Made by a program: the position numbers and the translations under genes
Source: Candidatus Heimdallarchaeota archaeon
GTDB taxonomy: Archaea > Asgardarchaeota > Heimdallarchaeia > Heimdallarchaeales > Kariarchaeaceae
Direction of reading: 5' to 3'
DNA length: 21,394 nt
Assembly: GCA_015522385.1 (NCBI GenBank)
Contig: WAMJ01000040.1
Location: forward strand, 1 to 21,394
The notes under the pieces: generated by a model
What the model was told of the DNA's origin: nothing
The model's database searches: none
What the model saw: only the letters and a program-made list of their open reading frames with translations
Shown: in pieces, positions 5,356-19,282 of the stretch
Layout of the letters: each line of letters starts with the position of its first letter
Position numbering within the stretch: position 1 is the stretch's first letter

Positions 5356-5960
5356 CCCGTGAGGGCCTTTATCACAGAATCGCACGCATCTACAATCTAT
5401 TGGACTGGCCGTATGAGGTCATGATCTACCGGGGGATGAGGAAGAGGTGGATAGCAGAGCTCAGAGGGGAAACCATCCTCGAGGTCGGAGTAGGTACGGG
5501 GAAGAACCTGAGGTACTACCACGGGAGCAATGAGGTTCTTGGAATAGACAGGAGTCCACAAATGCTCGCTCAAGCTGAGAAGGAACAGAGGAAACTGGGT
5601 GCGGAGAACATTGACCTTCTGCTTCAGGAGGAACTCCCGTGGAATCTGCCCGAGAAGAAATTTACAACTGTAGTTGCCACCTTCGTCATGTGCACGATGA
5701 AGGACCCCTCACCCGTGTTCGAGGAGATCGCACGGGTCGTCGCCCCGGGGACGAGGTTCATCATCTTTGAGTACACCAAGCCCAAGTCCTTTCTGATGAG
5801 GATGTGGGCGAAGCTCCTGAACCCAACGACGAGGTTCCTCTTCGGAGTTGACTTCAACAGGGGAGCGAGCACCGAGTTCATGGGGGAAAAGTGGAAACTG
5901 GTCAGACGCACGAATGTAATGGAGGAGTTCCTGTTCGTCGCGGAGTTAGAGAGGGTATGA
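5340..5960 (+). CDS. Class I SAM-dependent methyltransferase (METTL7/UbiE-like)
   Basis: Cytosolic or membrane-peripheral methyltransferase of about 206 residues. The Rossmann motif I ILEVGVGTGKNLRYY, the acidic end of strand 2 (LGIDRSP) and the motif FVMCTMKDPSPVFEEIARVV followed by PGTRFIIFEY match the METTL7/phospholipid-methyltransferase-like group. The N-terminal YNLLDWPYEVMIYRGMRKRW is typical of these proteins. I took the GTG at 5340, which overlaps the permease stop by 16 nt; no convincing ribosome site is visible, so translation may depend on coupling. A longer form from ATG 5265 would overlap the permease by 90 nt and adds residues unlike the family. The gene ends 15 nt inside the converging hemY. 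Substrate unknown; a small lipophilic thiol, quinone or lipid is possible. Confidence 0.75.
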   Translation: MEKKLAREGLYHRIARIYNLLDWPYEVMIYRGMRKRWIAELRGETILEVGVGTGKNLRYYHGSNEVLGIDRSPQMLAQAEKEQRKLGAENIDLLLQEELPWNLPEKKFTTVVATFVMCTMKDPSPVFEEIARVVAPGTRFIIFEYTKPKSFLMRMWAKLLNPTTRFLFGVDFNRGASTEFMGEKWKLVRRTNVMEEFLFVAELERV

Positions 5961-7307
5961 TTGTTGGATACGCACCGCTAGACGTCTGCCCTCATCTGCC
6001 AAGTGGGCTGTAGCAATCCCAGTCCACCCGATTGCATTGAAGTAGATACCCGGGTTCTGGGTCTCAAGATGCACACGGAAGTCATCCACTCTCCAGTGAC
6101 CGAGCTCCAGCTGTGGAATACCGGATTTGTGCCGTACAACATGCGTGAATTCTGGTTGGGCATCACCCAGCTTCAGAAGAGGTCTGATATCCTCAAGAGT
6201 GTTCTCGACCAGAGCTTCTGTACTAAGTTTGGCCCTCTCAGGGCTCCGTCGTCCTCCGAGAATGACCCGGAAGAGTACCTTACCATCCGGTGCATGATGA
6301 GGGAAGACATCCGAGGTGAAGAGAGTCCCCAGAGCGAATCTATCCTCCTTCGACGGAGAGAGATAGCCATATCCTCTGGGCCTATCAAGGAGGTCATTCT
6401 CGTCAAAACCCAGAGCCACAACGGCAACAGGAGGGGCTGGTATTGGATTGAGGGGCAACTTACCTTTGAGTTCGAGATCAGGGCAGTTATTTGGGCTGGT
6501 GCTGATGACGACAACATCTGCAGAGAACTGGTCATTCTCGCACTCCACAACATATTTACTTTCTCGCTTCTTGATCGAGAGCACAGGGGTGTTACAACGG
6601 ATATCAAATCCATCTGACATTCTCTCGACAAGGCTTATCATCCCGTTCTTGAAGTTCAAGAGGAAAGGTGGTTTCTTCTTCTTGTCATCCCCCTTTTTAT
6701 CGATTTTCTTCTTTTCCTTAGCGTAGCGCATACCGCCCCTGATAATCGATCCATGCTCACGCTCGAATTCAGCAAGCTTCGGAAAGACAAAGGATGCACT
6801 GAGCTTACGGTGGTCACCGGCATAGACACCTGAAATGAAAGCATCTAGGAGATGGTCAACACCTTTCCCGAATCTACGCTCAATTAATTCTCCCAAAGAG
6901 GATTCTGCAGGAATATCTTTGCTCTTAATAAAGGGTTCCGCAATCAGCCTGAGCTTGCTTCGGAAACTAATTAATGGAGTTGTGACTGCACCGAGGGGGC
7001 CGTGCGGTAATTTCACCAAGCGATTCTTTTGCACAAGATAGCGTTTCGCGGATATATTCGATGAAGGTTCGACGATATCGCGTGCTCCAGCTAGGTCGAT
7101 TAGTTCATTCGCGGCCATTGCATTCCCTCGGATACCCTCGGGACCTGTTTCGATGATGTACCCATCCTTGTTCACTGTGTTGATGAATCCCCCAGGGACA
7201 GTACCTTTCTCGAGGATCAGTATATTTTCTTTCGGGATTCCTTTGGCGTGGAGGAATGTCGCGGTTGCAAGACCACTGAATCCCGCACCAACAATAATTA
7301 CTTTCAT
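5946..7307 (-). CDS. hemY: Protoporphyrinogen oxidase, HemY-type FAD enzyme
   Basis: Six-electron oxidation of protoporphyrinogen IX to protoporphyrin IX. The N-terminal dinucleotide-binding motif is VGAGFSGLATA and the following strand ends in LILEKGTVPGG. The C-terminal FAD segment is YFNAIGWTGIATAHLADEGRRLA. About 453 residues, normal for the family. Residues around 200-225 hold a very Lys-rich insertion (KEKKKIDKK, KKKKPP) before the FKNGM segment. The second Met (ATG 7305-7307) is preferred because GGTGA then lies 7 nt upstream; the first Met at 7313 is only 1 nt from it. This is the last gene of the heme operon, 12 nt after hemN. HemY enzymes use O2 as electron acceptor; the related coproporphyrinogen oxidase CgoX cannot be fully excluded from sequence, but hemN in the same operon argues for protoporphyrinogen. 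Confidence 0.85.
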   Translation of the reverse strand: MKVIIVGAGFSGLATATFLHAKGIPKENILILEKGTVPGGFINTVNKDGYIIETGPEGIRGNAMAANELIDLAGARDIVEPSSNISAKRYLVQKNRLVKLPHGPLGAVTTPLISFRSKLRLIAEPFIKSKDIPAESSLGELIERRFGKGVDHLLDAFISGVYAGDHRKLSASFVFPKLAEFEREHGSIIRGGMRYAKEKKKIDKKGDDKKKKPPFLLNFKNGMISLVERMSDGFDIRCNTPVLSIKKRESKYVVECENDQFSADVVVISTSPNNCPDLELKGKLPLNPIPAPPVAVVALGFDENDLLDRPRGYGYLSPSKEDRFALGTLFTSDVFPHHAPDGKVLFRVILGGRRSPERAKLSTEALVENTLEDIRPLLKLGDAQPEFTHVVRHKSGIPQLELGHWRVDDFRVHLETQNPGIYFNAIGWTGIATAHLADEGRRLAVRIQQSYPL

Positions 7308-7319
7308 GATCATTTCACC

Positions 7320-8696
7320 CTATATTGATTTAGAGAACCCCCCTCGGTTCTTGCTGTTCAAGTACTCATCCATGACTGATGCAGGGAGTCTTGCAAACAC
7401 TTTCCCTAGGGCAGTGGCCCTCCACACCTCTCCATCCCTGTACACGAGACCCTCCTTTTCGTACTGTGGGAAACCATCGTTGATATCTTTTATGAGACTA
7501 TCAGCAGAAGTGCCATATTTGTTCATGATTTCTTCTGGGTCGACATAGAACTGGCACAGCCATCTAACTATTGCCTCCTTTCTCATCAGGTCGCTCTCGT
7601 TCAATCGGAGACCCTTCAGGATAGGAAACTTGTCATTCCAGACACCTGCATAATATTTGTCCAGGGTTTTGTGGTTCTGGGAGTACGCACCATTCACGTC
7701 ACTGATTGCAGAGAAGCCAAAAGCGATAAGATCTGACCCTGCATGCGTGGTATACCCCATGAAGTTTCTGTTGAGGTCGTTTGACGTGTAGGCCGTCCAG
7801 AGTTCGTCATCCTTGAGCGCAAAATGGTCAAAACCTATGGGTAGATATCCGAATTCAAGTAGTTTCTCGCGGGCTAGAAGGAAGAGCTCGAGCTTGTTCG
7901 TACCCCTTGGCAGAACCTCTAGAGGGAATATTCCCTGATGCCGGAATATCTTTGGAAGGTGGGCGTAGCTGTAAACCGCAAGTCTTTCTGGTCTGAGCTC
8001 ATGGATGAGATCCAAGCTCTGGGAGAATCCCTTTTTAGACTGGAAAGGAAGACCATATATCAGGTCTAAATTTATGCTCTCTATGCCATGATCCCTCGAA
8101 AATTCAATGAGATACTTGGTCTCCTCAAATGTCTGATGCCTGTTTATCTTCTTCTGGACGAGTGGATCGAAATCCTGAACACCCATCGAGAATCTGTTGA
8201 ATCCGTGATTCAGGAATGTGAGAGTGCGGTCATCTGTTGTGACGGAAGGATGCATCTCAACAGATTTCTCTGCATCTGAGGTGGGGGTGAACTTGCTGTC
8301 AACAAATTCTAGAAGCTCATGCAAAAGCTCAGCAGGGAAATAGGAAGGTGTGCCTCCACCGATGTGGAACTGGGAGTACTTCCTTCCGTCACCGATATAT
8401 TCGACGACATTTTCTATCTCCTCTTTTAGGTGATTGAGATAACTCCTGAAGTGGGACTCCCTCCTTGTGATATACGTGTTGCACCCACAGAATGAACACC
8501 GCCTCTCGCAGAATGGGAGGTGGATGTACAAGCTAAGATCTGAAGCGTCGTCTGCCACATCAGTAAGTGTTCTTGCATGATCTTCACTCGTGTACTTTCC
8601 GTTCCAGACAGGGACTGTGGGATAACTCGTGTACCGTGGTATAGGTAGGTTGAATCTCTCAATCATGTCAATATCGAGATCAGGGATATCTTCCAC
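7320..8696 (-). CDS. hemN: Oxygen-independent coproporphyrinogen III dehydrogenase (HemN)
   Basis: Radical SAM enzyme that decarboxylates two propionates of coproporphyrinogen III to make protoporphyrinogen IX without O2. The N-terminal PRYTSYPT motif and the cluster Cys63, 67, 70 with the extra Cys72 (PFCERRCSFCGCN) are those of true HemN; the HemW-type heme chaperone lacks this N-terminal region. GGGTPSYF follows, then MGVQDFDPLVQKKINRHQT and LDLIYGLPFQ. 458 residues, usual length. Start is GTG, overlapping the hemE stop by 1 nt, with GGAGGT 9 nt upstream. It is translationally coupled and sits between hemE and hemY, the order of reactions. Confidence 0.94.
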   Translation of the reverse strand: MEDIPDLDIDMIERFNLPIPRYTSYPTVPVWNGKYTSEDHARTLTDVADDASDLSLYIHLPFCERRCSFCGCNTYITRRESHFRSYLNHLKEEIENVVEYIGDGRKYSQFHIGGGTPSYFPAELLHELLEFVDSKFTPTSDAEKSVEMHPSVTTDDRTLTFLNHGFNRFSMGVQDFDPLVQKKINRHQTFEETKYLIEFSRDHGIESINLDLIYGLPFQSKKGFSQSLDLIHELRPERLAVYSYAHLPKIFRHQGIFPLEVLPRGTNKLELFLLAREKLLEFGYLPIGFDHFALKDDELWTAYTSNDLNRNFMGYTTHAGSDLIAFGFSAISDVNGAYSQNHKTLDKYYAGVWNDKFPILKGLRLNESDLMRKEAIVRWLCQFYVDPEEIMNKYGTSADSLIKDINDGFPQYEKEGLVYRDGEVWRATALGKVFARLPASVMDEYLNSKNRGGFSKSI

Positions 8697-9721
8697 TATG
8701 CACCAACCTCCTTTACCTGCTGCACAACAGCCATTACATTCTCGACGGGAGTATCCTTGTTGACACCTTGGGAGAGATTGAAGATATACCCCGGTTCCTG
8801 CATGCCCATTGAGATCTGCTCGTCTACCGCCTTCTTCAGTCTATCCCCACCAGTTAACAAGTACGCAGGGTCGAGATTCCCCTGAATAACCACTGGTCTA
8901 CTGATCACAGACCTTGCAGTTGATATGGTCATGGTATGGTCAAGACTATAACCCGAAGCACCGAGTTCTTTCAACACAGGAAGAAGGTGAGAAGAACCTC
9001 TGGCATAGAAGATGAGAGGTACTTTCTGTATTATGTCGTTCACCAGTTTTTTTGTCTTGGGCAGGATCATATCCCTGTACTGTGCAGGTGATAGATGCCC
9101 AGCCCAAGAGTCAAAGAGCTGCACAAAATCAACGCCCTGCTCTATCTGGGAGTTAATCTGTACCTTCACAACTTCAATGAGGAGATCGAGAAGTTCGTCG
9201 TAAGCACCACGGTTCATCTCGGCGAACACTTTCGTGGAAAGTGAGTCCCTAGTACTTCTTCCCTCAATCAAGTAAGATGAGAGTGTGTAAGGTGCCCCTG
9301 CAAAGCCGATTACAGCTTTGTCTGGAAGGTTTTCTCTAACAATTTGTATACCCTGTTTAAGCGAGTCAAATACATCGTCTTCGGGAACGGCAAGGTCATC
9401 GACATCACCCTGAGTTGAAATTCTATTCTTCAGGACTGGACCAACACCGGGGATGATTTTCAGATCCCTCTCCATTCCGTAGAACGGCAGGAGGATATCG
9501 GAGAAGATGATCGCTGCGTCGAGATCATACCGCTTGACGGGCTGCAGAGTTACCTCAGCGGTAAGGATAGGACTGAATAGGAGATCTTCGAAGGTCTTTC
9601 CTTCTCTGAGCTCGCGGTATTCTGGAAGATGCCTACCAGCTTGACGCATCATCCAAATAGGTGGTCTGACAGTTTCTCTGTGGGCAAAGACATCATCGAA
9701 TAGTTCCAAGGAGGTGCTCAT
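8696..9721 (-). CDS. hemE: Uroporphyrinogen decarboxylase
   Basis: Cytosolic enzyme that decarboxylates the four acetates of uroporphyrinogen III to give coproporphyrinogen III. 341 residues. The first signature PPIWMMRQAGRHLPEYRELR contains the two substrate-binding Arg; the FSDILLP segment carries the conserved Asp; the second signature is GFAGAPYTLSSYLIEG with the conserved Tyr. Near the C-terminus the usual NLGHG reads NLSQG, so the conserved His is Gln318. The ATG overlaps the hemL stop by 4 nt (ATGA), with GGAGGTGC... context in the promoterless junction (CCTTGGAACT on the minus strand lies after the start). Strong membership of the family; the His-to-Gln change is the only odd residue seen. 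Confidence 0.94.
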   Translation of the reverse strand: MSTSLELFDDVFAHRETVRPPIWMMRQAGRHLPEYRELREGKTFEDLLFSPILTAEVTLQPVKRYDLDAAIIFSDILLPFYGMERDLKIIPGVGPVLKNRISTQGDVDDLAVPEDDVFDSLKQGIQIVRENLPDKAVIGFAGAPYTLSSYLIEGRSTRDSLSTKVFAEMNRGAYDELLDLLIEVVKVQINSQIEQGVDFVQLFDSWAGHLSPAQYRDMILPKTKKLVNDIIQKVPLIFYARGSSHLLPVLKELGASGYSLDHTMTISTARSVISRPVVIQGNLDPAYLLTGGDRLKKAVDEQISMGMQEPGYIFNLSQGVNKDTPVENVMAVVQQVKEVGA

Positions 9722-11013
9722 GATCCATCACTCCTCTTCATCTTTTGGAAGGTGCTTTCGATTTTCGATATTGTCATTGAGATCACTTTGTCCGTGTGTG
9801 CAGTTGAGATAAAGCACACCTCGAATGCACTAGGTGGCATGTAGAGTCCCTCTTCGAGAGCGTACCTGTGGAATAGGGCATATCGCGCCTCTGCCTCAGG
9901 GCTGATATCTCTTGGTCCCTGAGGTTCATGATCCTGAAATACGAACCACAGGATCGAGGCTATTTGCCGTACATAAACTGGGATGGAGAATGTCTTCGAA
10001 AGTCGCAGGATCTCATCCTTAAGAAGTGATGCTCTCTGCTCAAGTATAGAGTAGGTGTCATCATCGAGCAGAGAGAGTGCCACAGTACCTGCTTTCATAG
10101 CGAGTGGATTACCGCTGAGAGTGCCGGCTTGGTACACATCCCCTACAGGGGCGACAAGTTCCATTAGATCCTTCCGCCCACCATACGCACCTACAGGAAG
10201 ACCACCGCCAATTATTTTTCCGTAGACCAGAAGGTCTGGTTTCAGCCCTTCGTAGTACCCAACAGCCCCACTCTTAGACACCCTGAAACCAGAGATGACC
10301 TCATCGAGGATGAAGATACTTCCGTGCTGTCGACACAGATCTTGAATGGTGGATAAGAACTCATTTGTCTGAGGGAATAGCCCCATGTTCGCCGGAATAC
10401 CTTCAATAATTACAGCGGCTATTTCAGAGCCTATATCCTCAAAAATCTTCTTCAGCGTCTGCTTGTCGCCTAGCTCAAGGACGAGGGTGTCCTTCGTCAC
10501 AGATTCGGGTATCCCCGCACTGTTAGCTATGCTGAAGGTAGCAAGACCACTTCCTGCCTTGACAAGGAGTGAATCCACATGTCCATGGTAACAGCCATTG
10601 AACTTGATGACCTTCGACCTTCCAGTAGCACCGCGAGCGAGCCGTAGGGCAGACATAACTGCCTCTGTCCCACTGTTCACAAACCTGACCCAATCAAGGT
10701 GAGGATTCAAGTTGATCATGAGATGTGCGAGCCCTACTTCGTTAGGGATGGGGGCTCCGAAGGAGGTCCCCATAGGGAGAACATCCATCAATCCATCCAC
10801 AATATCCTTGTTTGAGTGCCCAAAGATCAAGGGGCCAAATGACATCACATAGTCGATATACTCCCGACCATCCACATCATAGAGATATGCTCCACTACCC
10901 CTCTGTATGAATAGCGGTGTGTTCTTAACTGCTCTGAATGCCCGGACTGGAGAACTCACTCCTCCAGGCATCACTGTTTTTGCTTCATCGTACAATTTTT
11001 CACTTTTGCTCAT
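9718..11013 (-). CDS. hemL: Glutamate-1-semialdehyde 2,1-aminomutase
   Basis: PLP enzyme that converts glutamate-1-semialdehyde to 5-aminolevulinate, the second step of the C5 route. 431 residues. The N-terminal MPGGVSSPVRAFRAV and FVNSGTEAVMSALRLARG are diagnostic; FNGCYHGHVDS, the Asp motif FILDEVISGFR and the PLP Lys266 in LVYGKIIGGGLPVGAYGG are all present. I start at the ATG at 11013, which overlaps the hemB stop (ATGA); an in-frame ATG 17 codons upstream would add residues that lie in hemB and do not look like the family. Directly followed by hemE through a 4-nt overlap. Its substrate comes from HemA in the same operon. Confidence 0.95.
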   Translation of the reverse strand: MSKSEKLYDEAKTVMPGGVSSPVRAFRAVKNTPLFIQRGSGAYLYDVDGREYIDYVMSFGPLIFGHSNKDIVDGLMDVLPMGTSFGAPIPNEVGLAHLMINLNPHLDWVRFVNSGTEAVMSALRLARGATGRSKVIKFNGCYHGHVDSLLVKAGSGLATFSIANSAGIPESVTKDTLVLELGDKQTLKKIFEDIGSEIAAVIIEGIPANMGLFPQTNEFLSTIQDLCRQHGSIFILDEVISGFRVSKSGAVGYYEGLKPDLLVYGKIIGGGLPVGAYGGRKDLMELVAPVGDVYQAGTLSGNPLAMKAGTVALSLLDDDTYSILEQRASLLKDEILRLSKTFSIPVYVRQIASILWFVFQDHEPQGPRDISPEAEARYALFHRYALEEGLYMPPSAFEVCFISTAHTDKVISMTISKIESTFQKMKRSDGS

Positions 11014-11984
11014 TCTAACCAATTCCTTTCGAGGAGTTCCCTCGCGTGATATGTAATGACCCAATCAGCCCCTGCCCTTACCATGGAGTTCAGGTTCTCA
11101 AGAACTATTCCCCTCTCTTCTACCAGTCCCTTGCTGGCGGATTCTTTGACCATCGTGTACTCCCCGGATACATTGTATGCAGCAACAGGGAGATCTGTTA
11201 AACTACGTACCGTCTTGATGACATCAAGGTAGGCAAGCGCAGGCTTTACCATAACGGCATCAGCCCCCTCTGCTATGTCCTGAGATATCTCACGACTTAC
11301 CTGCCGTATGTCCCTTGGATCCATCTGGTAGGTTGACCGGTCACCAAATTGAGGGGAACTGTCTATTGCACCCCGAAACGGACCATAGTACGCGCTTGCA
11401 AACTTGACAGAATAGCTCAGTATCCCAGTATTCGTAAGACCATTAGCGTCTAGTGTCTCCCTGATTGCACCAACCCTGAAGTCCATCATGTCACTGGGTG
11501 CCACCCAGTCAGAACCTGCCTCCGCAAAAGTCAAGGCAGATTTTGCAATGAGAGAGATACTCTCATCATTCTTGATCTCACTGGTTGTCTTGTCGGGAAT
11601 CCCACAATGTCCGTGAGACGTATAGGGGCACAAGCATACGTCCGAGATCAAAAATATGCTATCACCGAAAACCTCCTTCAACCACCGGATGGTGGTTGCT
11701 AATGGTCCATCAGAGTCGTATGCTCCAGTCCCAAGGAAGTCCTTCTTGTGAGCCTCACCGAAGAGGAGAAATTTGTTAAGACCGAGGTCAACAAATTTTT
11801 CCATCTCCTTCAGGAGGACATCAGGAGAGTAGATATACTGACTCGGGAGTGTCGAAATCTCCTTTTTAACCCCATGACCATGGGTGATGAAAAGCGGGTA
11901 GATCAATTGTCTACACTCGACATGGTGGTGTCCGAGGGAATCTCTGATTATCTTACTTCTTCTTAAATTTCTGAGCCTAGTCAT
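11010..11984 (-). CDS. hemB: Delta-aminolevulinic acid dehydratase (porphobilinogen synthase)
   Basis: Condenses two 5-aminolevulinate molecules into porphobilinogen. 324 residues. The zinc-type metal site is visible as DVCLCPYTSHGHCG with Cys117, 119 and 127, in contrast to the Asp-rich Mg-type site of plants and many bacteria. The Schiff-base Lys lies in AVMVKPALAYLD, and FGDRSTYQMD and AAYNVSGEYTM are conserved substrate-site segments. Start taken as the ATG at 11984, overlapping the hemC-hemD stop (ATGA), with GGAGG 7 nt upstream; a start 14 codons earlier would read through the end of hemCD. Catalysis should require zinc. Confidence 0.95.
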   Translation of the reverse strand: MTRLRNLRRSKIIRDSLGHHHVECRQLIYPLFITHGHGVKKEISTLPSQYIYSPDVLLKEMEKFVDLGLNKFLLFGEAHKKDFLGTGAYDSDGPLATTIRWLKEVFGDSIFLISDVCLCPYTSHGHCGIPDKTTSEIKNDESISLIAKSALTFAEAGSDWVAPSDMMDFRVGAIRETLDANGLTNTGILSYSVKFASAYYGPFRGAIDSSPQFGDRSTYQMDPRDIRQVSREISQDIAEGADAVMVKPALAYLDVIKTVRSLTDLPVAAYNVSGEYTMVKESASKGLVEERGIVLENLNSMVRAGADWVITYHARELLERNWLE

Positions 11985-13594
11985 GACATTGCCTCCATTA
12001 TTCCACTCACATCGTGCGGTGTGCACACCGAAACATCCGAGGACTTGACTCCAGAGTTTACTAGAACTGATCGCGAGCGTTCACTGTACACAATCCATCT
12101 ATGCTTCCGTAGAAGATCACCGAGCTCTGAAGATAAGAGCATCTCAGTGATCTTTGTGCTTGTTGACACCACTACCCATTCACTAGTTTTACTCTTGACC
12201 TGTCGTAGTATCGCATTGGTGAGTGATGATGGGAGCTCGTACATTGTTGAGTAGACAACCACCCGTTCAAGAACCACCCCTAGATTATCACAGGTATCTA
12301 CAAGTCCCTTGGGAGCTATATCCCCGCCCAGATGAACTATGGTTTGGGGGTCGTCTTTCTCATGTAATTCCCTTGCAAGGAGGGCAGAGCTAGGACGGGT
12401 GCTCACATAATGGATGGGTATGCCCCTCGACTGAGCAATCCTTGCAGTTGCCCCCCCAACAACAGCGACCTTCTTCTTCTGTAGAAGGGGAACTATGGTT
12501 CTGTGGAGATAGTTTACACTCCGCGGTGATGTCAATATTATCCAGTCTCCCCCCCTGATTGTGTCCGCAGCAGATGTATTGGGTAGCACAGGAACAGAAG
12601 ACACGACGGGAAGACAGTAAGTGGGTACGCCTAGATCATGAAGTTCACGCACCATGGGATGATCCTCTCCCTTTGTGATAATAATATCAAATTCTGAGAC
12701 CGGCGGTGTTGTCATGGGCGTATGTGAGGAAAATTGTTCATCTACCCAGCAGAGAACCTCCTGTTTGCCCTTACCTATTATATGTGTATAACGGTGCACC
12801 CCCTGTCTTCTCCCGTCGAAGAGATCGAGTGTTAGTCCCGACTCTAATTGCTGAACAGTTACTCCAACAGGAGTAATACAACCAGATCCAAGCTTTGAGA
12901 AAATCTCTCTCTCAAGCTCCACGGAATCGGAGTCCTCGGATCGAAACTTTTCGATCACATCAATTAACTCTGTATCTTCCTTCCTCAGTTGGACTCCCAA
13001 CTGCCCCTGTGCTGGCGATGTCGGAAACAGGGAGAGAGGGAGGACAATACTTGATATCTCAGGAGGAAGGTTCTGGGGGTAGCGATTGACTGCAGCCTTA
13101 GATATGACAAGCCCATCGAACCACCCCTCAATAAGCTTCCCCACCCGTGTATCTATGTTTCCACGGATATCTACCACAACAAGGTCACTCCTGAGAGCCA
13201 GTAACTGACTCCTTCGCCTCACTGAGCTTGTTGCAATTACTGAGTGCGATGGGAGCTCATCGATCCCCCTATACTCTCCCCGGATCATGAGAACATCCCT
13301 CGGATCCTCTCGGGGAAGAACCGGAATTGTGTCAAGTCGGTCATCTGTTTTTGTAGGGAGATCCTTCATGCTGTGCACTGCGATGTCGATCTCCCCCTTG
13401 ACAAGAAGCTCCTCCAGATGACTAGTGAAGACACCATCCTTCCCCATCTGATGAATTGGGGTGATCCTGCTCGTATCCCCAAGGGACTTGAAGTAAACTG
13501 TCTCAACATCTAAGCCTATTTCCTTCATCCTGTCGACAAGGTGCGAAGTCTGTATCCTTGAGAGTTGACTGCCGCGAGCCCCTACAGTTATCAA
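11981..13594 (-). CDS. hemCD: Fused porphobilinogen deaminase / uroporphyrinogen III synthase
   Basis: One 537-residue protein with two consecutive activities. Residues 1 to about 295 are HemC: GARGSQLSRIQ at the N-terminus, HSMKDLPT with the catalytic Asp, the Arg-rich SSVRRRSQ, and Cys239 (GSGCITPVG) for the dipyrromethane cofactor. Residues from about 300 on are HemD: DIIITKGEDHP, a central DWIILTSPRSVNYL strand and VVVYSTMYELP linker, then VVVSTSTKITEML, with the low sequence conservation usual for HemD. The fusion would pass the unstable hydroxymethylbilane directly to ring closure. The start is TTG, supported by GGAGGT 6 nt upstream and by the family N-terminus beginning right there. 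It overlaps the hemA stop (TTGA) and is followed by hemB with a 4-nt overlap. Confidence 0.93.
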   Translation of the reverse strand: MITVGARGSQLSRIQTSHLVDRMKEIGLDVETVYFKSLGDTSRITPIHQMGKDGVFTSHLEELLVKGEIDIAVHSMKDLPTKTDDRLDTIPVLPREDPRDVLMIRGEYRGIDELPSHSVIATSSVRRRSQLLALRSDLVVVDIRGNIDTRVGKLIEGWFDGLVISKAAVNRYPQNLPPEISSIVLPLSLFPTSPAQGQLGVQLRKEDTELIDVIEKFRSEDSDSVELEREIFSKLGSGCITPVGVTVQQLESGLTLDLFDGRRQGVHRYTHIIGKGKQEVLCWVDEQFSSHTPMTTPPVSEFDIIITKGEDHPMVRELHDLGVPTYCLPVVSSVPVLPNTSAADTIRGGDWIILTSPRSVNYLHRTIVPLLQKKKVAVVGGATARIAQSRGIPIHYVSTRPSSALLARELHEKDDPQTIVHLGGDIAPKGLVDTCDNLGVVLERVVVYSTMYELPSSLTNAILRQVKSKTSEWVVVSTSTKITEMLLSSELGDLLRKHRWIVYSERSRSVLVNSGVKSSDVSVCTPHDVSGIMEAMS

Positions 13595-14694
13595 TCGTAG
13601 ACCTCCATGAGCAGATCCTTGTACTCCTCTTGAGCATGGTGCAGAAGGGTGTTGATGGCGACATCGAGTTTCTTCTCAATGTCCTTTGAGCCAAGTGATT
13701 CCATGATATCCTTCTTCTTGACCTGGGCCACGCTGTACAGCCTTGACCGAAAGTTTATGAGCTTGTCCTTGTGCTTTGTGAGAACATCCCGTTTTCGCCT
13801 GTGCGCCAGATATTCACCAATAAGTTGCTCTGCCTTAGCAATGGAAGATACCCTGATCTCTCTATTCTTCTCTGAGAGCTCTTTAAGATGATCCAAAGTT
13901 ATGACCTCGTGCACACTTCCGTCACCAATCTCGGGGATCGTCCTAGGAACAGTCAGATCGATGTAGAGCTGTGGGTCATTTCTCCCCTCTTCGATATCTT
14001 CGGAGGAGAGAAGAAGGTTGGGTGCTGCGATAAATACAAGGTCATACTGCTTAATTCTTGAAACGAATAGGTTCTTTCTGAAATAGTTTTCTGCAATAAG
14101 ATCCTCTCTATCGGTGTACCAATGAATCTTCGCTGAAGCAAAAAGACGCCTTACCAGCTTTCCGCTTTTTTTCGCCATTTCGCCCGTACCAATGATTCCG
14201 ATCTGCAGATTATGGTCAGGAGAAAGATTGGCACCGAAATCTCTGATTTTATCCTCAATCAGGGACAGCACGGATACTTTTCCAAGAGGGACACTAGTCT
14301 CTGATTGTATTCGAGAAGACACCCTGAATACATCCTGCATTATCTTCCCGAGCTCTTTCTCCATCCCACTATCTGATTCCGCACTGAAGAATGCCTCCTT
14401 CATCTGATGGGTGATTTGAGTCTCTCCGATAACGTAGGACTTGAGACCAGACGTCACTTTCACAAGGTAGTTGAATGCACTATCCCCTCGGAGAATCTCG
14501 ACATACTCAAGGAGATCGTTATCATCCAATACACCAAGGTCATTGTGTATCCTACTTTCGAGGCCTTGGAGGTCGTATACGGCAATTATGATTCTCTGGC
14601 AGGTGGATATTCTAAACGCTCCCTCTGCATTTGGGAGGAGTGTATCGAACTCATTTGTCACCCGTTCGAATATCTCTATGGGGGTGTGAGGCAT
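13591..14694 (-). CDS. hemA: Glutamyl-tRNA reductase (true start probably 7-11 codons upstream)
   Basis: First step of the C5 route: NADPH-dependent reduction of glutamyl-tRNA to glutamate-1-semialdehyde. The catalytic Cys32 lies in ISTCQR; SYVIGETQITHQMKEAF is the conserved substrate region; an NADP motif GIIGTGEMAKKSGKLV and the C-terminal dimerisation helices follow. The first ATG (14694) begins at PHTPIEIFERV, but the same open frame upstream codes LLVITWQ, which aligns without gaps with the first strand of other GluTRs (compare HILVVGVDYKSAPIEI in Bacillus). No ATG, GTG or TTG exists in that extension. GGAGGG at 14734-14739 sits 6 nt before an ATC codon and 9 nt before a TTA codon, so a non-standard start or a sequence error is likely. 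The stop overlaps the hemC-hemD start. Confidence 0.9.
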   Translation of the reverse strand: MPHTPIEIFERVTNEFDTLLPNAEGAFRISTCQRIIIAVYDLQGLESRIHNDLGVLDDNDLLEYVEILRGDSAFNYLVKVTSGLKSYVIGETQITHQMKEAFFSAESDSGMEKELGKIMQDVFRVSSRIQSETSVPLGKVSVLSLIEDKIRDFGANLSPDHNLQIGIIGTGEMAKKSGKLVRRLFASAKIHWYTDREDLIAENYFRKNLFVSRIKQYDLVFIAAPNLLLSSEDIEEGRNDPQLYIDLTVPRTIPEIGDGSVHEVITLDHLKELSEKNREIRVSSIAKAEQLIGEYLAHRRKRDVLTKHKDKLINFRSRLYSVAQVKKKDIMESLGSKDIEKKLDVAINTLLHHAQEEYKDLLMEVYD

Positions 14695-14720
14695 CTGCCA
14701 TGTAATGACCAGAAGGTTAT

Positions 14721-15755
14721 CTAAGATAGAGCTCCCTCCTCTGAGACCAGTCTGTGAATGTGCTGAGCTACACCTCGTGCGAATTTCTCCGAGTTATTCG
14801 GAGGTGGTATCATATGGTAATTGGTGATCCCAACCTCACTTGCCTCCTCCCTGTACAATATATCGATCTCGTAAAGGGTCTCTATGTGATCTGTAACGAA
14901 TCCCAAGGGTACGACAAACATGCACGAGATTGACTCACCAGCCAAATCCCCGATCACCTCGGAAGTGGAAGGTTCAATCCATTCAACGGGACCGACTTGA
15001 CTCTGGAAAGAGAGTGAGAATCTTACATTCACACCCATTTCCTTCAGCTTTCTGACTATCAGCTCATATGATTCAGTGATCAGAGCTTCGTATGGGTCAC
15101 CTTCAGCGACGTACTTCTTAGGTAATGCATGAGAACTAAATAGAATTACCATATTCTCTCGATCAGATTCATCCAACTTCTGCCATCTTTCATAGACCAC
15201 GTCCACCCACCAGTTGATGTAGAATTTTTCGAATGACCAGTCCTCGACCCAGTGTATCCTCGTCTTTCTTCCGAGGTATCTCTTCCAAAATTCTTCCGAG
15301 AAGTCATTCAACGAAGAACCAGTTGTAGACTTGCTGAAATGCGGATAAAGCGGGTAGAGTAGAAGACGATCTGCCTTTAGTTTGTTTAATCTATCCACCA
15401 CCTCCTTTGACCGAGGATCAGTGTATCTCATTATCAAATGTGTCCTGTATCCCTCACCAAGCTCTGCTTTTACTTTATCAATAAAATTATTTGTAATCTT
15501 CAGGATCGGAGACCCACCTCCAATCTTCTTATACATGTTCCGCGTATTTCTGGATCTGAAAGTTGATATCAACCACGCAAGATTCTTCTGGAACCGTCTC
15601 ATCCACTTCGGCAGTTGAATTATGTACTCATCAGAAAATAGATTAAATAGGAAAGCTTTTACTGCTTTTAAATTTGCGGGACCACCCATCTGTAGAAAAA
15701 CTACATCAACAGGAGTATTATTCTTATTGGGAGAACCCTCTGAATCTTGTGGCAT
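14721..15755 (-). CDS. hemH: Ferrochelatase (protoporphyrin type)
   Basis: Inserts Fe2+ into protoporphyrin IX to make protoheme, the last step, although it is the first gene of the operon. 344 residues. Catalytic His209 is in LFSSHALPKKY, and Glu292 is in VTDHIETLYEID. LLYPLYPHFSKSTTGSS and SFQSQVGPVEWIEPST are classic family segments, and the GDPY after the catalytic His is typical of the protoporphyrin enzymes. No Cys cluster for a 2Fe-2S site is seen. The ATG at 15755 lacks a ribosome site; a TATA box 30 nt upstream puts transcription start at about 15759, so the mRNA is nearly leaderless. The N-terminal about 15 residues are a polar extension before VDVVFLQMGGP. Confidence 0.94.
   Translation of the reverse strand: MPQDSEGSPNKNNTPVDVVFLQMGGPANLKAVKAFLFNLFSDEYIIQLPKWMRRFQKNLAWLISTFRSRNTRNMYKKIGGGSPILKITNNFIDKVKAELGEGYRTHLIMRYTDPRSKEVVDRLNKLKADRLLLYPLYPHFSKSTTGSSLNDFSEEFWKRYLGRKTRIHWVEDWSFEKFYINWWVDVVYERWQKLDESDRENMVILFSSHALPKKYVAEGDPYEALITESYELIVRKLKEMGVNVRFSLSFQSQVGPVEWIEPSTSEVIGDLAGESISCMFVVPLGFVTDHIETLYEIDILYREEASEVGITNYHMIPPPNNSEKFARGVAQHIHRLVSEEGALS
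14734..14739 (-). promoter_or_regulatory. Ribosome binding site that marks the likely hemA start
   Basis: GGAGGG on the minus strand, inside the end of hemH. It has no ATG, GTG or TTG within reach in the hemA frame: the in-frame codons 6 and 9 nt downstream are ATC and TTA. Other junctions in this operon have GGAGG-type sites 6-9 nt before their starts, so this site probably serves hemA from a non-standard start codon. Confidence 0.6.
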
Positions 15756-15781
15756 TCTTGGATGTAAGAAATTAGTTTTTA

Positions 15782-15789
15782 ATATAAAG
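15782..15789 (-). promoter_or_regulatory. TATA box of the heme operon
   Basis: Reads CTTTATAT on the minus strand, followed by an A/T-rich stretch. The predicted transcription start is near 15759, about 4 nt before the hemH ATG. It is the only clear promoter found for the eight-gene operon, whose internal junctions all overlap or are separated by at most a few tens of nt. Confidence 0.6.
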
Positions 15790-15801: not shown

Positions 15802-15815
15802 ACTGTCCAGACAGT
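15802..15815. promoter_or_regulatory. Perfect palindrome ACTGTC-CA-GACAGT between hemH and the TrmB gene
   Basis: Two 6-bp arms with a 2-bp centre, about 13-33 bp upstream of the heme operon TATA box and about 37 bp upstream of the TATA box of the divergent regulator gene. It also overlaps a direct repeat of CCAGAC at 15798-15803 and 15807-15812. Position and symmetry fit a dimeric regulator controlling hem, its own divergent gene, or both. Confidence 0.55.
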
Positions 15816-15893: not shown

Positions 15894-16712
15894 ATGAAGA
15901 ATAACAAAATTCTGCTTGAAAGTCTGAAGCATAAAATTAGCGAAATCCCATTAATTGTATACAGAAATTTGGAAGACCTCCTTGTCATCACCCCATCCGA
16001 AGGGAGGATATTTGTCACATTACTCCTCTATGATGCTCTATCCGCCAGAGAGATCGCCTTTGTTACGGACATCCCACGAACGAAGGTGTACAATCACATC
16101 AAATCGTTGGTCACCAAGGGGATCATCATCGAGAGATCGAGTAAACCTGCAAATGTGTATTTTGCTACGGATCCAAAGTTGCTTCATTCCAGATATATCA
16201 CCAAGTGGAAGTCACATCTACTAGACAGGGAGGAAAGGTTGGGGCAACTCGTAGATATGCTTATCGGTCTCCAGAGCGAGGAAAAACTCTTGTCTAATCC
16301 GGAAAATATCTCCGTGTCAAATACATTTCCAGAGATATACAGAGCGATTGAGGATGCAAATTCAAGAGTTTGGATTGTTGCTTCTGGGAAGGGAGGGATG
16401 TACAACTGGTCTGAGACTGCGAACACCTTGGCAGAACTTGTCAATCGGGGAATAGATGTCACCTACATCGTGGATAAACCAATAATTCCAAAAATCTTGG
16501 AAAAACACTTCAGACCTTTATTGGATAAAGGGAAGAGTATCCGAACGATTTATCAAAAGGTTGTACCGCACAACATGCTGATAGTAGATGAGAATTTGTT
16601 CATAATTAATATAAGCCCCGAGAGCTCCTCAATTGAGAATGTTCAGCACCGTGATATTGTAAATACCTATATCCTCTACCTTGAAGGGATAATAGAGGGT
16701 GCGAAACATTAG
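15894..16712 (+). CDS. TrmB-type transcriptional regulator, candidate regulator of the heme operon
   Basis: DNA-binding protein of 272 residues. Residues about 30-100 form a winged helix: TPSEGRIFVTLLLYDALSAREIA, then the recognition helix around DIPRTKVYNHIKSLVTKG, and a wing ending in ANVYFATDPK, as in TrmB proteins. A helical linker (about 100-130) follows. The C-terminal part (IYRAIEDANSRVWIVASGKG, later HNMLIVDENLFIINISPES) resembles the PLD-like sensor domain of TrmB relatives. No classic sugar-binding evidence is visible, so the ligand is unknown. It is divergent from hemH, sharing a 138-bp region with a perfect palindrome, the usual arrangement of a local regulator and its target. GGAGAAG lies just upstream of the ATG. 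It ends 2 nt from a converging gene. Confidence 0.8.
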   Translation: MKNNKILLESLKHKISEIPLIVYRNLEDLLVITPSEGRIFVTLLLYDALSAREIAFVTDIPRTKVYNHIKSLVTKGIIIERSSKPANVYFATDPKLLHSRYITKWKSHLLDREERLGQLVDMLIGLQSEEKLLSNPENISVSNTFPEIYRAIEDANSRVWIVASGKGGMYNWSETANTLAELVNRGIDVTYIVDKPIIPKILEKHFRPLLDKGKSIRTIYQKVVPHNMLIVDENLFIINISPESSSIENVQHRDIVNTYILYLEGIIEGAKH

Positions 16713-16714
16713 GC

Positions 16715-17512
16715 TCACTCGCCAGGAGCGGAGAACCTGTCCCTTGATACCCTCCAGATTCTGCGGTTGACGAGCGAGAGAACGAGCAACCATCCTACAA
16801 GCACAAGCAGCCTGTAGATAATGTCCATGACATCCAATCCATTGGACACGAGAACCATTGCAGGGAAGTCAACCATGCTGCTCATAGGGTTGAGCACAAG
16901 CATGTCCCGAACCCCCTGTGGAAAAAGTGCTAGGGGGATGATGGCTCCACCGAAGAACATCAACGTACCAATCAGTGAACCTCCAAATCCTCCGATACGA
17001 CCAACAAGTACTGCTGCTGCTGCCAGTATCGATACAATAAGGTACTGGAGCACAGTGTTCAGGAGGATCAGGATCAAGATCAGAAGCCCCTTAGCAAGGG
17101 TCAACTCCACTGTTATTCCCATGAGTGAAATCACCACAGCGAGGGTGATACTTCCAGTGACGAAATAGATGAGAAAATCGCCCCATCCCTCGAAGATCTC
17201 CTTAACGTGGTAGTCGATGGGAAGCGTAAATCCGACAACAGCACCACCCTGCACAAGATCCTGCTCCATCTTGATCATTGTCTCCTGAGTGTTGTACAGG
17301 AACTGCAAGAAAGCAGTAAAACTGACGAAGAGAAGGATCTGGCTCCTACTTAGACCCATGAACTGTGATGAGGAACCGACGATGAAGTCCCACAAAAGGA
17401 CAGTAACAAATACCCTGATTGGGAGCTGGAGAAGAATAAAGAGATAATTTAGCCGGAAGACCATCTTGGTTCGGATGGCCACCCTTAGGCTTGACGGGAG
17501 CTGGGCGAACAT
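16715..17512 (-). CDS. ABC transporter permease, ABC2_membrane_6 (DUF990) type
   Basis: Membrane protein of 265 residues with about six hydrophobic segments. The N-terminal RTKMVFRLNYLFILLQLPIRVFVTVLLWDFI and the late motif ...FGGAIIPLALFP..V...L.LNP are characteristic of the permeases that pair with ATPases carrying the VFGQR motif. The ATG overlaps the preceding stop by one base (TGATG), and GGAGGT lies 8 nt upstream, so it is coupled to the upstream permease. Last gene of a three-gene exporter unit. It ends only 2 nt from the converging regulator gene. Relatives are annotated as viologen/antibiotic exporter subunits, but the substrate here is unknown. Confidence 0.85.
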   Translation of the reverse strand: MFAQLPSSLRVAIRTKMVFRLNYLFILLQLPIRVFVTVLLWDFIVGSSSQFMGLSRSQILLFVSFTAFLQFLYNTQETMIKMEQDLVQGGAVVGFTLPIDYHVKEIFEGWGDFLIYFVTGSITLAVVISLMGITVELTLAKGLLILILILLNTVLQYLIVSILAAAAVLVGRIGGFGGSLIGTLMFFGGAIIPLALFPQGVRDMLVLNPMSSMVDFPAMVLVSNGLDVMDIIYRLLVLVGWLLVLSLVNRRIWRVSRDRFSAPGE

Positions 17513-18291
17513 CAGAGGCTACCTCCGGACTGGTAGTTCTTCAATCCACTCTCCCAGAGTTTCCTAAAGAGGGAGAACCAGATAGTGAGGAGGATGGTGA
17601 GGACTGCCACACCCCACAGAACCATATCGACAGATACACGCTGCAGGATGATACTGGCCGGAAAGGTGGCGACGAAGAAGAGTGGGACAATGAATGTGAG
17701 TAAGAACCCGGTCGCACCTCCGAGCCCATCAAGAGGAAAACGCTTAGCCAAACCAAAATTGTTCAATACCTGCACTATCGCCTGCATGGTTCCGATCCAG
17801 AATGACAGGAGATTGAACACCATAGCAACCAAGTTCTCCAGAACCGATCCTGCAATCGCCAGTATGACACCAAGGAGGAAGAGGAGGGGGTTGAGTCCTG
17901 GGTTCAGGTAGTACGCTATCCCTACTGCTATGAGGGAGACGATTGGAGTGAGAAGCCGTTCAGGGGAGAGCACTCTCCCGATCAACGCCTTGGTGGGGTT
18001 CTCTGGTAGAATGAGAATTGAGTCTAGCGATCCATGGACCACAAGGTATGGCAAGAAATAGAAGCCCAAAGAGAGTATCTGGAACACCGAGAGACTGAGA
18101 TGGGAGAAAGCGATAATGAGACCCATCTCCTTGAAGCTCCAACCGTTGAAAGTGCTGTTGAATGAGAGTCCCCCAAGGATAAACCAGAAGAGGAAGAACT
18201 GCACGATCCCAGTTATCATCTTGAAGAATACCATGGTGAAGTTCAACCTGAATGCCATCATCTCCCTGAGATTCAGGCGGAGGTACGCCAT
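17512..18291 (-). CDS. ABC transporter permease, ABC2_membrane_6 (DUF990) type
   Basis: Membrane protein of 259 residues with about six hydrophobic segments. It is the partner of the next permease and shares its plan: an N-terminal LNLREMMAFRLNFTMVFFKMITGIVQFFLFWFIL segment, and the late FIVPLFFVATFPASIIL segment that corresponds to the FxxPLxLFP turn of the family. I use the ATG at 18291, since GGTGAT lies 7 nt upstream and the codon overlaps the ATPase stop (TGATG); a GTG one codon earlier is also possible. The two permeases probably form a heterodimer with the ATPase coded upstream. Confidence 0.85.
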   Translation of the reverse strand: MAYLRLNLREMMAFRLNFTMVFFKMITGIVQFFLFWFILGGLSFNSTFNGWSFKEMGLIIAFSHLSLSVFQILSLGFYFLPYLVVHGSLDSILILPENPTKALIGRVLSPERLLTPIVSLIAVGIAYYLNPGLNPLLFLLGVILAIAGSVLENLVAMVFNLLSFWIGTMQAIVQVLNNFGLAKRFPLDGLGGATGFLLTFIVPLFFVATFPASIILQRVSVDMVLWGVAVLTILLTIWFSLFRKLWESGLKNYQSGGSL

Positions 18292-19259
18292 CACTGCCTA
18301 TCACCCACCGTGAGGGCGTCCACGAGACTCTGTTTCTTGATCCGGATGTCCTTGATCTTAAAGCCTTCGTAGAGCATCTTCATGATATCCTCGATGGAGT
18401 CATCGAATGAGATCTTCAGCGTGTCACCCTCTTGCGTGACCTCGGTCGCCAGCTGCTTAAGCCCATCGAGGGAGGTCTCGACCGGGACATCACGTGGGCC
18501 CTCTGTCTCGACAAAGAGGAGGTTGCTGAGTTTAAGCTCATGGTTGAGTTCCTCCTGTGTACCCCTGAACTGCAACTGTCCGTTGGAGATGATGATGTAG
18601 TCGTCGCACATGTTCTCTAGCTCGGCGAGGTCGTGGCTTGATATGATCGTGGTCACGTCGTTCTCGCGGACGTACCTCACGAGCAGTTCCCTCAGTTTCG
18701 CCTTCGCCTTGAAATCCAGACCTATTGAGGGCTCGTCGAGGAAGAGGAGATCAGGACCGTGGAGCAGAGCTGCTACGATGTCGCACTTCCTCCTCTGCCC
18801 GAGGCTCAGCTCCCTCGGGGGACGGTCGATGAGGTCGGTAATTCCAAATAGCTCGGATAGGTAATCCAACCTCTGGTTGAATATAGACTTAGGTACCCTG
18901 TATATGTCCCTTAGCCACTCATAGGAGTAGCGGACGGGGATCGTCAACCTGAGTATAGTCCTCTGTCCGAAGACGATACCCACCCTTTTCATCAATTCCT
19001 TACGCTGCTTGAAAGGATCCATTCCAAGAACTGATATATAACCTGAATTCGGGCTGAGTATCCCTGTCATGAGCTTGATCACGGTGGACTTTCCAGCTCC
19101 ATTCTCACCTATCAGTCCAGTTATTCCAGGCTTATCCACGGAAAATGACAGATTCTTCACCGCAGACACCTCGTGGAATACAGGGTTCAAAAATCCCTTA
19201 AGACCATTCTGTAGTCTAACCCTGTACGATTTAGAAACCTGTGAAAAAAGTATCAACAT
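18291..19259 (-). CDS. ABC transporter ATP-binding protein with VFGQR motif
   Basis: Nucleotide-binding subunit, 322 residues from the ATG at 19259. Walker A is at 51-59 (GENGAGKST), followed by the Q-loop IVFGQRTIL, the signature ELSLGQRRKCDI (LSLGQ, not LSGGQ), Walker B LLFLDEPSIGLD and the switch His ISSHDLAELE. Pre-Walker sequence GLKGFLNPVFHEVSAVKNLSF and the FGQR/LSLGQR pair are typical of ATPases that work with ABC2_membrane_6 permeases, as coded immediately downstream. The last 80 residues form an extra C-terminal domain. A GTG five codons upstream is possible, but the ATG lies 2 nt from the start of transcription expected from the TATA box at 19283-19290, so leaderless translation is likely. 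Exporter with unknown substrate. Confidence 0.9.
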   Translation of the reverse strand: MLILFSQVSKSYRVRLQNGLKGFLNPVFHEVSAVKNLSFSVDKPGITGLIGENGAGKSTVIKLMTGILSPNSGYISVLGMDPFKQRKELMKRVGIVFGQRTILRLTIPVRYSYEWLRDIYRVPKSIFNQRLDYLSELFGITDLIDRPPRELSLGQRRKCDIVAALLHGPDLLFLDEPSIGLDFKAKAKLRELLVRYVRENDVTTIISSHDLAELENMCDDYIIISNGQLQFRGTQEELNHELKLSNLLFVETEGPRDVPVETSLDGLKQLATEVTQEGDTLKISFDDSIEDIMKMLYEGFKIKDIRIKKQSLVDALTVGDRQ

Positions 19260-19282
19260 CGTTGGAGTCTGCACGAATTGGG

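Follow-up and report, generated by a model that had tools for sequence, protein, structure and literature searches.

The 21,394-nucleotide contig WAMJ01000040.1 (GenBank assembly GCA_015522385.1, Candidatus Heimdallarchaeota; this whole stretch is called the window below) carries eight consecutive heme biosynthesis genes, which we read as a complete protoporphyrin heme operon in an Asgard archaeon, derived from a single bacterial acquisition and later inherited, lost, or passed on (probability about 0.8). The evidence consists of gene content, gene order, phylogenetic placement, and distribution across related genomes. The eight open reading frames (ORFs) lie in a row on the minus strand between 5946 and 15755 with no other gene between them, and from 15755 down to 5946 their order is hemH-hemA-hemCD-hemB-hemL-hemE-hemN-hemY, hemC and hemD forming a single fused gene. 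Families were called with Pfam and NCBIfam models at curated cut-offs, and 22 window proteins were scanned with Pfam:

14721..15755, minus strand: hemH, ferrochelatase of the protoporphyrin type, first gene of the operon (TIGR00109/PF00762)
13591..14694, minus strand: hemA, glutamyl-tRNA reductase (PF05201, PF01488)
11981..13594, minus strand: hemCD, fused hydroxymethylbilane synthase and uroporphyrinogen III synthase (PF01379, PF02602)
11010..11984, minus strand: hemB, porphobilinogen synthase (PF00490, 415 bits; ATGA overlap with hemCD at 11984)
9718..11013, minus strand: hemL, glutamate-1-semialdehyde aminomutase (TIGR00713; ATGA overlap with hemB)
8696..9721, minus strand: hemE, uroporphyrinogen decarboxylase (TIGR01464)
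7320..8696, minus strand: hemN, oxygen-independent coproporphyrinogen III dehydrogenase (TIGR00538, structure 1olt, motifs)
5946..7313, minus strand: hemY, FAD protoporphyrinogen oxidase, last gene of the operon (TIGR00562, trees)

These families confirm, at the level of predicted function, the claim of an earlier sequence-only reading of this DNA that the eight genes supply every step from glutamyl-tRNA to protoheme; the fusion of hemC with hemD is a detail beyond what that reading gave. Its description of one coupled operon is likewise borne out: hemA/hemCD, hemCD/hemB, hemB/hemL, and hemL/hemE each overlap by 4 bases, hemE and hemN overlap by 1 base, and hemN and hemY are separated by 6 bases, giving tight spacing (1- to 4-base overlap or 6-base gap) at six of the seven junctions. 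The same order recurs in nine other, separate genome assemblies, and the arrangement is therefore not a product of chance. For hemB and hemL, the most likely starts are the ATGs at 11984 and 11013 rather than the earlier starts in the ORF list. The hemA frame stays open 5′ of its ATG at 14694 with no ATG, GTG, or TTG (window 14694-14724), and this upstream stretch resembles by eye the first strand of glutamyl-tRNA reductases; the true hemA start probably lies upstream of 14694 at no standard start codon, reflecting an unusual start codon or a sequence error.

The late enzymes identify the route. HemE scores 328 bits with TIGR01464 (cut-off 303), HemY 231 bits with TIGR00562 (cut-off 98), and HemH 284 bits with TIGR00109 (cut-off 125). 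HemN reaches 433 bits with TIGR00538 (cut-off 325) versus 146 bits with the HemW model TIGR00539, under that model's cut-off of 205; its best solved structure is 1olt (292 bits), and the PRYTSYPT and CxxxCxxCxC motifs are present. The closest solved structures to HemH are those of human FECH (156 bits), compared with at most 99.5 bits for Bacillus subtilis-type coproporphyrin enzymes. HemH has Met at the human Met76 position (FLQMGG) and retains His (SHALP) and Glu (DHIETLYE), which we take to be functional ferrochelatase residues, the Met position presumably being Tyr in coproporphyrin enzymes; among the nine related HemH copies the Met is kept in all seven that cover the position, the His in 8/8, and the Glu in 9/9. 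On these scores and residues HemH is assigned to the protoporphyrin rather than the coproporphyrin type, and together HemE, a true HemN, HemY, and a human-type HemH point to the protoporphyrin-dependent route, in agreement with the calls made from the sequence alone. Among the early enzymes, HemL scores 537 bits with TIGR00713 (cut-off 527), and HemA exceeds the PF05201 cut-off and stays under that of TIGR01035 (127 bits, cut-off 210), retaining in 10 of 10 aligned operon copies a CQR whose Cys we take to be a functional motif of glutamyl-tRNA reductase. The 537-residue HemCD matches PF01379 over residues 2-211 and PF02602 over residues 314-504 and has a GSGC sequence in the region of its Cys, presumably the cofactor site, and HemB has a CxCx..C motif that is presumably zinc-like.

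A contig of ‘Candidatus Heimdallarchaeota’ S012_26_esom (L035) carries all eight genes in identical order, and we searched 227 genomes of the phylum of this organism, 58 of them in its class; the window's own genome is not among them. Ferrochelatase was found at E <= 1e-20 in nine of the 227 genomes, all nine in the class and all with the operon whole or in part (G001, G026, G027, G028, G029, G031, G034, G035, and G048, hereafter carriers), and HemY reached E <= 1e-30 in eight, whether the 58 genomes of the class or all 227 are counted. The operon is whole on one contig in G001, G028, G034, and G035, and all eight genes are spread over two contigs in G031. The other four keep the order and, on contigs that end inside the operon, show six or seven of the genes; those not seen at these ends are hemL and hemE in G026, hemN in G027, hemY in G029, and hemE in G048. 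The hemH of G031 (G031:C257:7590-8545) matched in two pieces, the first outside the frame of the rest, through a frameshift, sequence error, or decay. Seven more class genomes gave weak ferrochelatase matches, E above 1e-10 in a search at E <= 0.001, of which four exceed the Pfam cut-off (G030, G047, G053, and G058; 32.8 to 38.6 bits) and three fall below it; the counts take only E <= 1e-20, so that the weak matches of G047, G053, and G058 are left out. HemB occurs in 13 of 227 genomes (the nine carriers, a fragment in G012, and G047, G082, and G227), and tetrapyrrole synthesis looks rare in the phylum. Because HemB is rare and strong ferrochelatases occur only with the operon (nine of nine), the operon is a compact marker of heme autonomy, with the caution that incomplete assemblies could explain single cases of gene absence. 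In wider searches, a contig search with a single HemCD sequence found no relative, one locus labelled Heimdallarchaeota appeared among the 80 loci listed for a HemY alignment search, and a plasmid search with HemH returned distant matches only, the best being Haladaptatus and Azospirillum at 28-29%.

The 22 window proteins scanned with Pfam include no Ahb, siroheme, or ChdC family, which upholds the earlier remark that no Ahb or siroheme genes are visible in the window. That reading had also proposed looking for Ahb genes elsewhere in the genome; in the related genomes, neither AhbC nor AhbD exceeded curated cut-offs in any of the 58 class genomes and thus in any of the nine carriers (the window's own genome lying outside the search), nor did AhbC match any carrier at 1e-40. 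The AhbD model matched weakly in almost all genomes and in each of the 14 controls, a pattern to be expected from radical SAM proteins. Of the AhbC-like matches the strongest is in G047 (369 bits), and the strongest AhbD-like ones are in G047 (314 bits) and G039 (299 bits), all under cut-off; on G047:C30 (L151, L217), HemB and the AhbC-like gene share a contig, so that the class may contain a siroheme-type route alongside the protoporphyrin one.

The host is most likely an Asgard archaeon, as indicated by the relatives of the operon and by one flanking protein rather than by a universal marker. Besides the S012_26_esom operon, the best named relative of HemCD is from Ca. Heimdallarchaeota LC_3 and those of HemY are from Ca. 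Kariarchaeaceae and Ca. Heimdallarchaeota, and the window HemY lies inside the Asgard clade, all in keeping with the archaeal host first proposed; the best named relative of HemH is labelled Methanobacteriota. The HemY, HemH, HemB, and HemN genes nest within the class clade of S012_26_esom, a placement that the HemCD tree did not resolve. Outside the operon, a window protein without a Pfam family (20622-21392) was matched in 45 of 227 phylum genomes, 38 of the 58 in the class versus 7 of the 169 others, many of these matches being partial and the search covering the phylum only. On the 123-kb contig of G035, where a WD40 protein adjoins the operon, a scan of ten proteins around the operon for archaeal hallmarks gave nothing decisive.

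We compared operon enzymes with homologs in trees, as the sequence-only reading had suggested (branch values are paired, and starred branches are named as such). Asgard HemY forms one clade (98/97, starred) against 15 other rows and is nested among bacterial HemY; the window copy falls in a starred group with G026, G027, G028, and G048, and the sisters of the clade are unlabelled proteins and one labelled ‘bacterium’ (P0132-P0136). Operon copies are also a single clade for HemN (99/99, starred) and HemE (100/99, starred). The HemB operon clade (99/97, starred) stands apart from non-operon Asgard copies (G047, G082, G227), Methanosarcinaceae, and most bacteria, with Holophagaceae joining it at 92/86, unstarred. 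For HemL, a starred branch (100/99) has the operon rows, Bdellovibrionota, and Holophagaceae on one side and two archaeal sequences (G082, Methanosarcinaceae) with seven bacterial rows on the other. The HemH tree contains a 24-row clade (100/100, starred) of ten operon copies, thirteen unlabelled proteins, and P0247. Labelled Methanobacteriota or Euryarchaeota, P0247 is a ferrochelatase that sits inside the Asgard clade beside G001; it may be mislabelled or may be one of the ‘unclassified Euryarchaeota’ mentioned in the available passages of PMC11459464. A close relationship of HemY to eukaryotic PPOX was considered and not borne out, as the human and tobacco enzymes fall in other parts of the tree; to the extent that the long branches of these sequences allow, their failure to group with Asgard HemY speaks against direct descent from it.

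Gene order in bacteria resembles that of the Asgard operon. A Holophagaceae operon (L057) reads hemD (by eye)-hemB-hemL-hemE-hemN-hemH-hemY, sharing the order B-L-E-N-...-Y, and a Bdellovibrionaceae locus (L056) reads hemA (by eye)-hemC-hemL-two other genes-hemE-hemN-hemY. The L056 HemC has an extended C-terminal portion and 517 residues in all, a length that suggests a HemCD fusion as in the Asgard operon, only the HemC part being matched. The L056 locus differs in its divergent hemB and in an inserted sensor kinase and regulator (by eye), and hemH comes first in the Asgard operon, unlike in either bacterial locus. The trees and the bacterial gene order together favor one block transfer. Of the two origins suggested from the sequence alone, transfer from bacteria as a block would thus be the best reading, as one old event, and a recent or late gain is not: the nine operon copies are 26-65% identical per gene to the window proteins and come from nine other species in two deep subgroups, and operon GC (0.476) equals that of the remaining window (0.485), which together make a recent arrival unlikely.

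Several points weigh against the reading given at the outset. HemB sets the operon rows apart from other archaea and most bacteria alike and indicates no donor; HemL does not separate them from Holophagaceae and Bdellovibrionaceae; HemCD gives no single operon clade (3 changes); and HemE assigns the window to a different subgroup from that of the other genes (94/91, unstarred). HemA and the HemD half are divergent, several neighbors of operon proteins sit on long branches, and in the HemH tree, which is flagged for long branches, the outgroup did not resolve. The bacterial rows are few and come mostly from loci chosen by HemY, which biases the sampling of donors. Within the window, the proposed check for 16S rRNA or ribosomal proteins found no Rfam match and, among the 22 scanned proteins, no ribosomal protein family; tRNAs and universal protein markers are missing from the window as well, and the matches to the flanking protein carry the limits given above. 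Finally, carriers G027 and G028 show no heme-copper oxidase.

Three other explanations of the operon's identity can be set against this evidence. A bacterial origin of the contig itself, including the misbinning of bacterial DNA with archaeal genomes, would account for eight enzymes of bacterial type and for bacterial HemH and HemB among the matches listed (about 39-49% identity). We regard it as highly improbable, given an operon found in nine separate assemblies with subgroups that agree with RpoB for seven of the eight carriers compared, a recurring TrmB neighbor (below), and a non-heme flanking protein frequent in the class in a search within the phylum. Scarcely more probable is a coproporphyrin-type or other tetrapyrrole route in which HemY and HemH act on coproporphyrin species. 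HemY does score 161 bits with 3i6d, 160 with 2ivd, and 135 with 1sez, which we take to be HemY-type structures from B. subtilis, Myxococcus, and tobacco, and B. subtilis HemY acts on coproporphyrinogen. Against this stand the true HemN and a HemH nearer to human FECH, with Met where coproporphyrin enzymes presumably have Tyr; the Pfam scan of 22 window proteins also showed no ChdC (HemQ), no ChdC search having been made across genomes. Less remote, though still unlikely, is a composite origin in which hemA, hemL, hemB, and hemCD are native archaeal genes later joined by bacterial hemE, hemN, hemY, and hemH. Most archaea retain hemA, L, B, C, and D for other tetrapyrroles (available passages of PMC3004389), HemA and HemCD are too divergent to be placed, and HemB itself points to no bacterial donor. 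However, operon HemB and HemL lie apart from the non-operon Asgard and Methanosarcinaceae homologs examined, the scarcity of HemB (13 of 227 genomes, nine of them carriers) leaves few native genes that could have been recruited, and the hemA-CD-B-L order resembles bacterial operons.

A further alternative concerns events after acquisition: the operon was present in the class ancestor and evolved by descent and many losses only, never moving between lineages of the class. That HemY, HemB, HemN, and HemE each form a single clade agrees with this, as does G030, nested among carriers in the RpoB tree, where a hemH piece of about 45 codons (L108, G030:C322, about 1477-1656) lies between unrelated genes with the rest of the operon absent. 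This piece, 35-64% identical to all nine related copies, is by its sequence a relic of operon loss; a HemA-like match in G030 (45 residues) was dismissed as chance, since it did not recur with HemA queries from related operons. The position of G048 argues the other way. An RpoB tree of 49 of the 58 class genomes places seven carriers in one clade with G030, G032, and G033 and places G048 in another (G029 had no RpoB match), and the operon trees recover the same two subgroups for the seven. G048, far from other carriers by RpoB, falls inside subgroup A with G026-G028 for HemY (97/88, starred), HemN (96/97, starred), HemH (95/86, starred), and HemB (89/85, unstarred), and forcing it outside in the HemY tree gave a p-AU of 0.011 for a group named after the tree was seen. 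This result suggests operon transfer inside the class, and we consider descent with losses alone improbable, if less so than a composite origin. The sequence-only reading had counted against itself ordinary vertical inheritance within an archaeal group already having the route; this holds in part, since available passages of PMC11459464 already describe the route in this group and raise transfer as well. A bolder extension of the single-acquisition reading, which we put forward tentatively and think somewhat doubtful, is that the operon crossed once from bacteria to an ancestor of Heimdallarchaeia-type Asgards and then behaved as a portable aerobic unit, kept, lost with a hemH relic left in G030, and passed between orders in G048, while oxidase-bearing genomes without it would use the heme of neighbors.

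Upstream of hemH lie features that may govern the operon:

15894..16712, plus strand: TrmB-type transcriptional regulator, divergent from hemH, candidate operon regulator (PF01978)
15802..15815, no strand: palindrome ACTGTC-TG-GACAGT (14 bases) between trmB and hemH, weak candidate operator
15777..15788, minus strand: candidate archaeal promoter (by eye), a TATA-like box TTTATATTAAAA lying 22-33 bases 5′ of the hemH ATG

TrmB is a mainly archaeal type of regulator, and a trmB gene occupies the same divergent position beside hemH in G026, G027, and G028; it was not matched in G001, G031, and G035, where at least 3 kb upstream of hemH was examined. The sequence TGTCNNGACA also lies upstream of hemH in G026 (0 mismatches), G027 (1), and, in the other subgroup, G031 (1); it was not found upstream of hemH in G028 (3 mismatches). 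A different palindrome, GATTCCGGAATC, or a near-match precedes the TATA region upstream of hemH at L092, L093, L095, and L131. It is present in four of five subgroup-B genomes with at most 2 mismatches, and equally good shuffles numbered 0, 1, 1, and 4 of 300, counts that are no test because both palindromes were picked after viewing the sequences. It has five mismatches in G031 and was not seen upstream of hemH in the window's subgroup; as a candidate operator, GATTCCGGAATC differs from the one proposed there. Elsewhere in the window, an ABC transporter cassette (an ATPase and two ABC-2 type permeases, 16715-19274) lies near the heme operon, and a P-type ATPase, probably for copper (by eye), with N-terminal MDHAK repeats occupies 9-2072, where it is cut by the window edge.

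Enzymatic activity, transcription, regulation, respiratory use, donor, and transfer direction are predicted from the comparisons above. HemA and HemL would convert glutamyl-tRNA to 5-aminolevulinate, HemB would form porphobilinogen, and the fused HemCD would yield uroporphyrinogen III, which HemE would decarboxylate to coproporphyrinogen III; HemN would then produce protoporphyrinogen IX without oxygen, HemY would oxidize it to protoporphyrin IX, and HemH would insert iron. HemN works without oxygen and HemY normally uses it, a pairing that would fit life at low oxygen. The genes probably share one transcript, their translation is probably coupled, and the divergently encoded TrmB-type protein is their probable regulator. 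The single bacterial acquisition most likely preceded the split of the two operon-bearing subgroups of the class and would have been followed by descent, by loss in some lineages, and probably by at least one transfer within the class.

The heme is most likely supplied to heme-copper oxidases. Subunit I exceeds its cut-off in seven of the nine carriers versus seven of the other 49 class genomes, 14 of 58 in all (Fisher p 3e-4, ignoring kinship). The remaining seven oxidase-bearing genomes (G032, G033, G036, G037, G041, G042, and G049) have neither HemB nor a ferrochelatase at E <= 1e-20; heme import is one possible explanation, incomplete assembly another. The lack of HemB in all seven would fit the idea of life on neighbors' heme. 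Asgard archaea of this class are thought to stand near the archaeal ancestor of eukaryotes, and the operon suggests that part of the group's aerobic biochemistry came from bacteria. How these archaea came to use oxygen is debated; the available parts of PMC12993045 bear on this as well and cite Appler et al. 2026 (Nature, doi 10.1038/s41586-026-10128-z) on their oxygen metabolism.

Available passages of PMC11459464 report the protoporphyrin-dependent route in Ca. Heimdallarchaeota and some unclassified Euryarchaeota and note that horizontal transfer might be its source; the route, the archaeal group, and the suggestion of transfer are thus the same as here, and those passages contain no operon, gene order, fusion, phylum distribution, or gene trees of these enzymes. 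A figure in the accessible part of PMC11193907 names HemA, L, B, C, E, N, G, and H in Heimdallarchaeia genomes as part of bacteriochlorophyll synthesis. Among the papers listed in our literature search, we recognized none as describing the operon, its order, or its distribution, and Appler et al. 2026 may describe heme genes. Relative to these sources as far as they were available, the route in Ca. Heimdallarchaeota was already known, and what is added here is the operon, with its distribution and the evidence that it arose once.

Among other archaea, Storbeck and colleagues found hemE and hemH only in Picrophilus torridus and two Thermoplasma species, which had no recognizable hemF/N or hemG/Y (available passages of PMC3004389). 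The archaeal Ahb route described there has the early steps to uroporphyrinogen III in common with the protoporphyrin route and differs in its later enzymes, AhbC and AhbD being absent above cut-off from the nine Asgard carriers. A fusion of HemC with CobA-HemD is described for Euryarchaeota in PMC11237513, whose available passages do not mention the HemC-HemD fusion seen here. Compared with the classical heme pathway of bacteria and eukaryotes, all of its enzymes are present, including a human-type ferrochelatase, and where HemF and HemG are possible alternatives the Asgard operon has HemN and HemY. Unlike that pathway elsewhere, it is found in an archaeal host, with all genes in one operon and with HemC and HemD fused.

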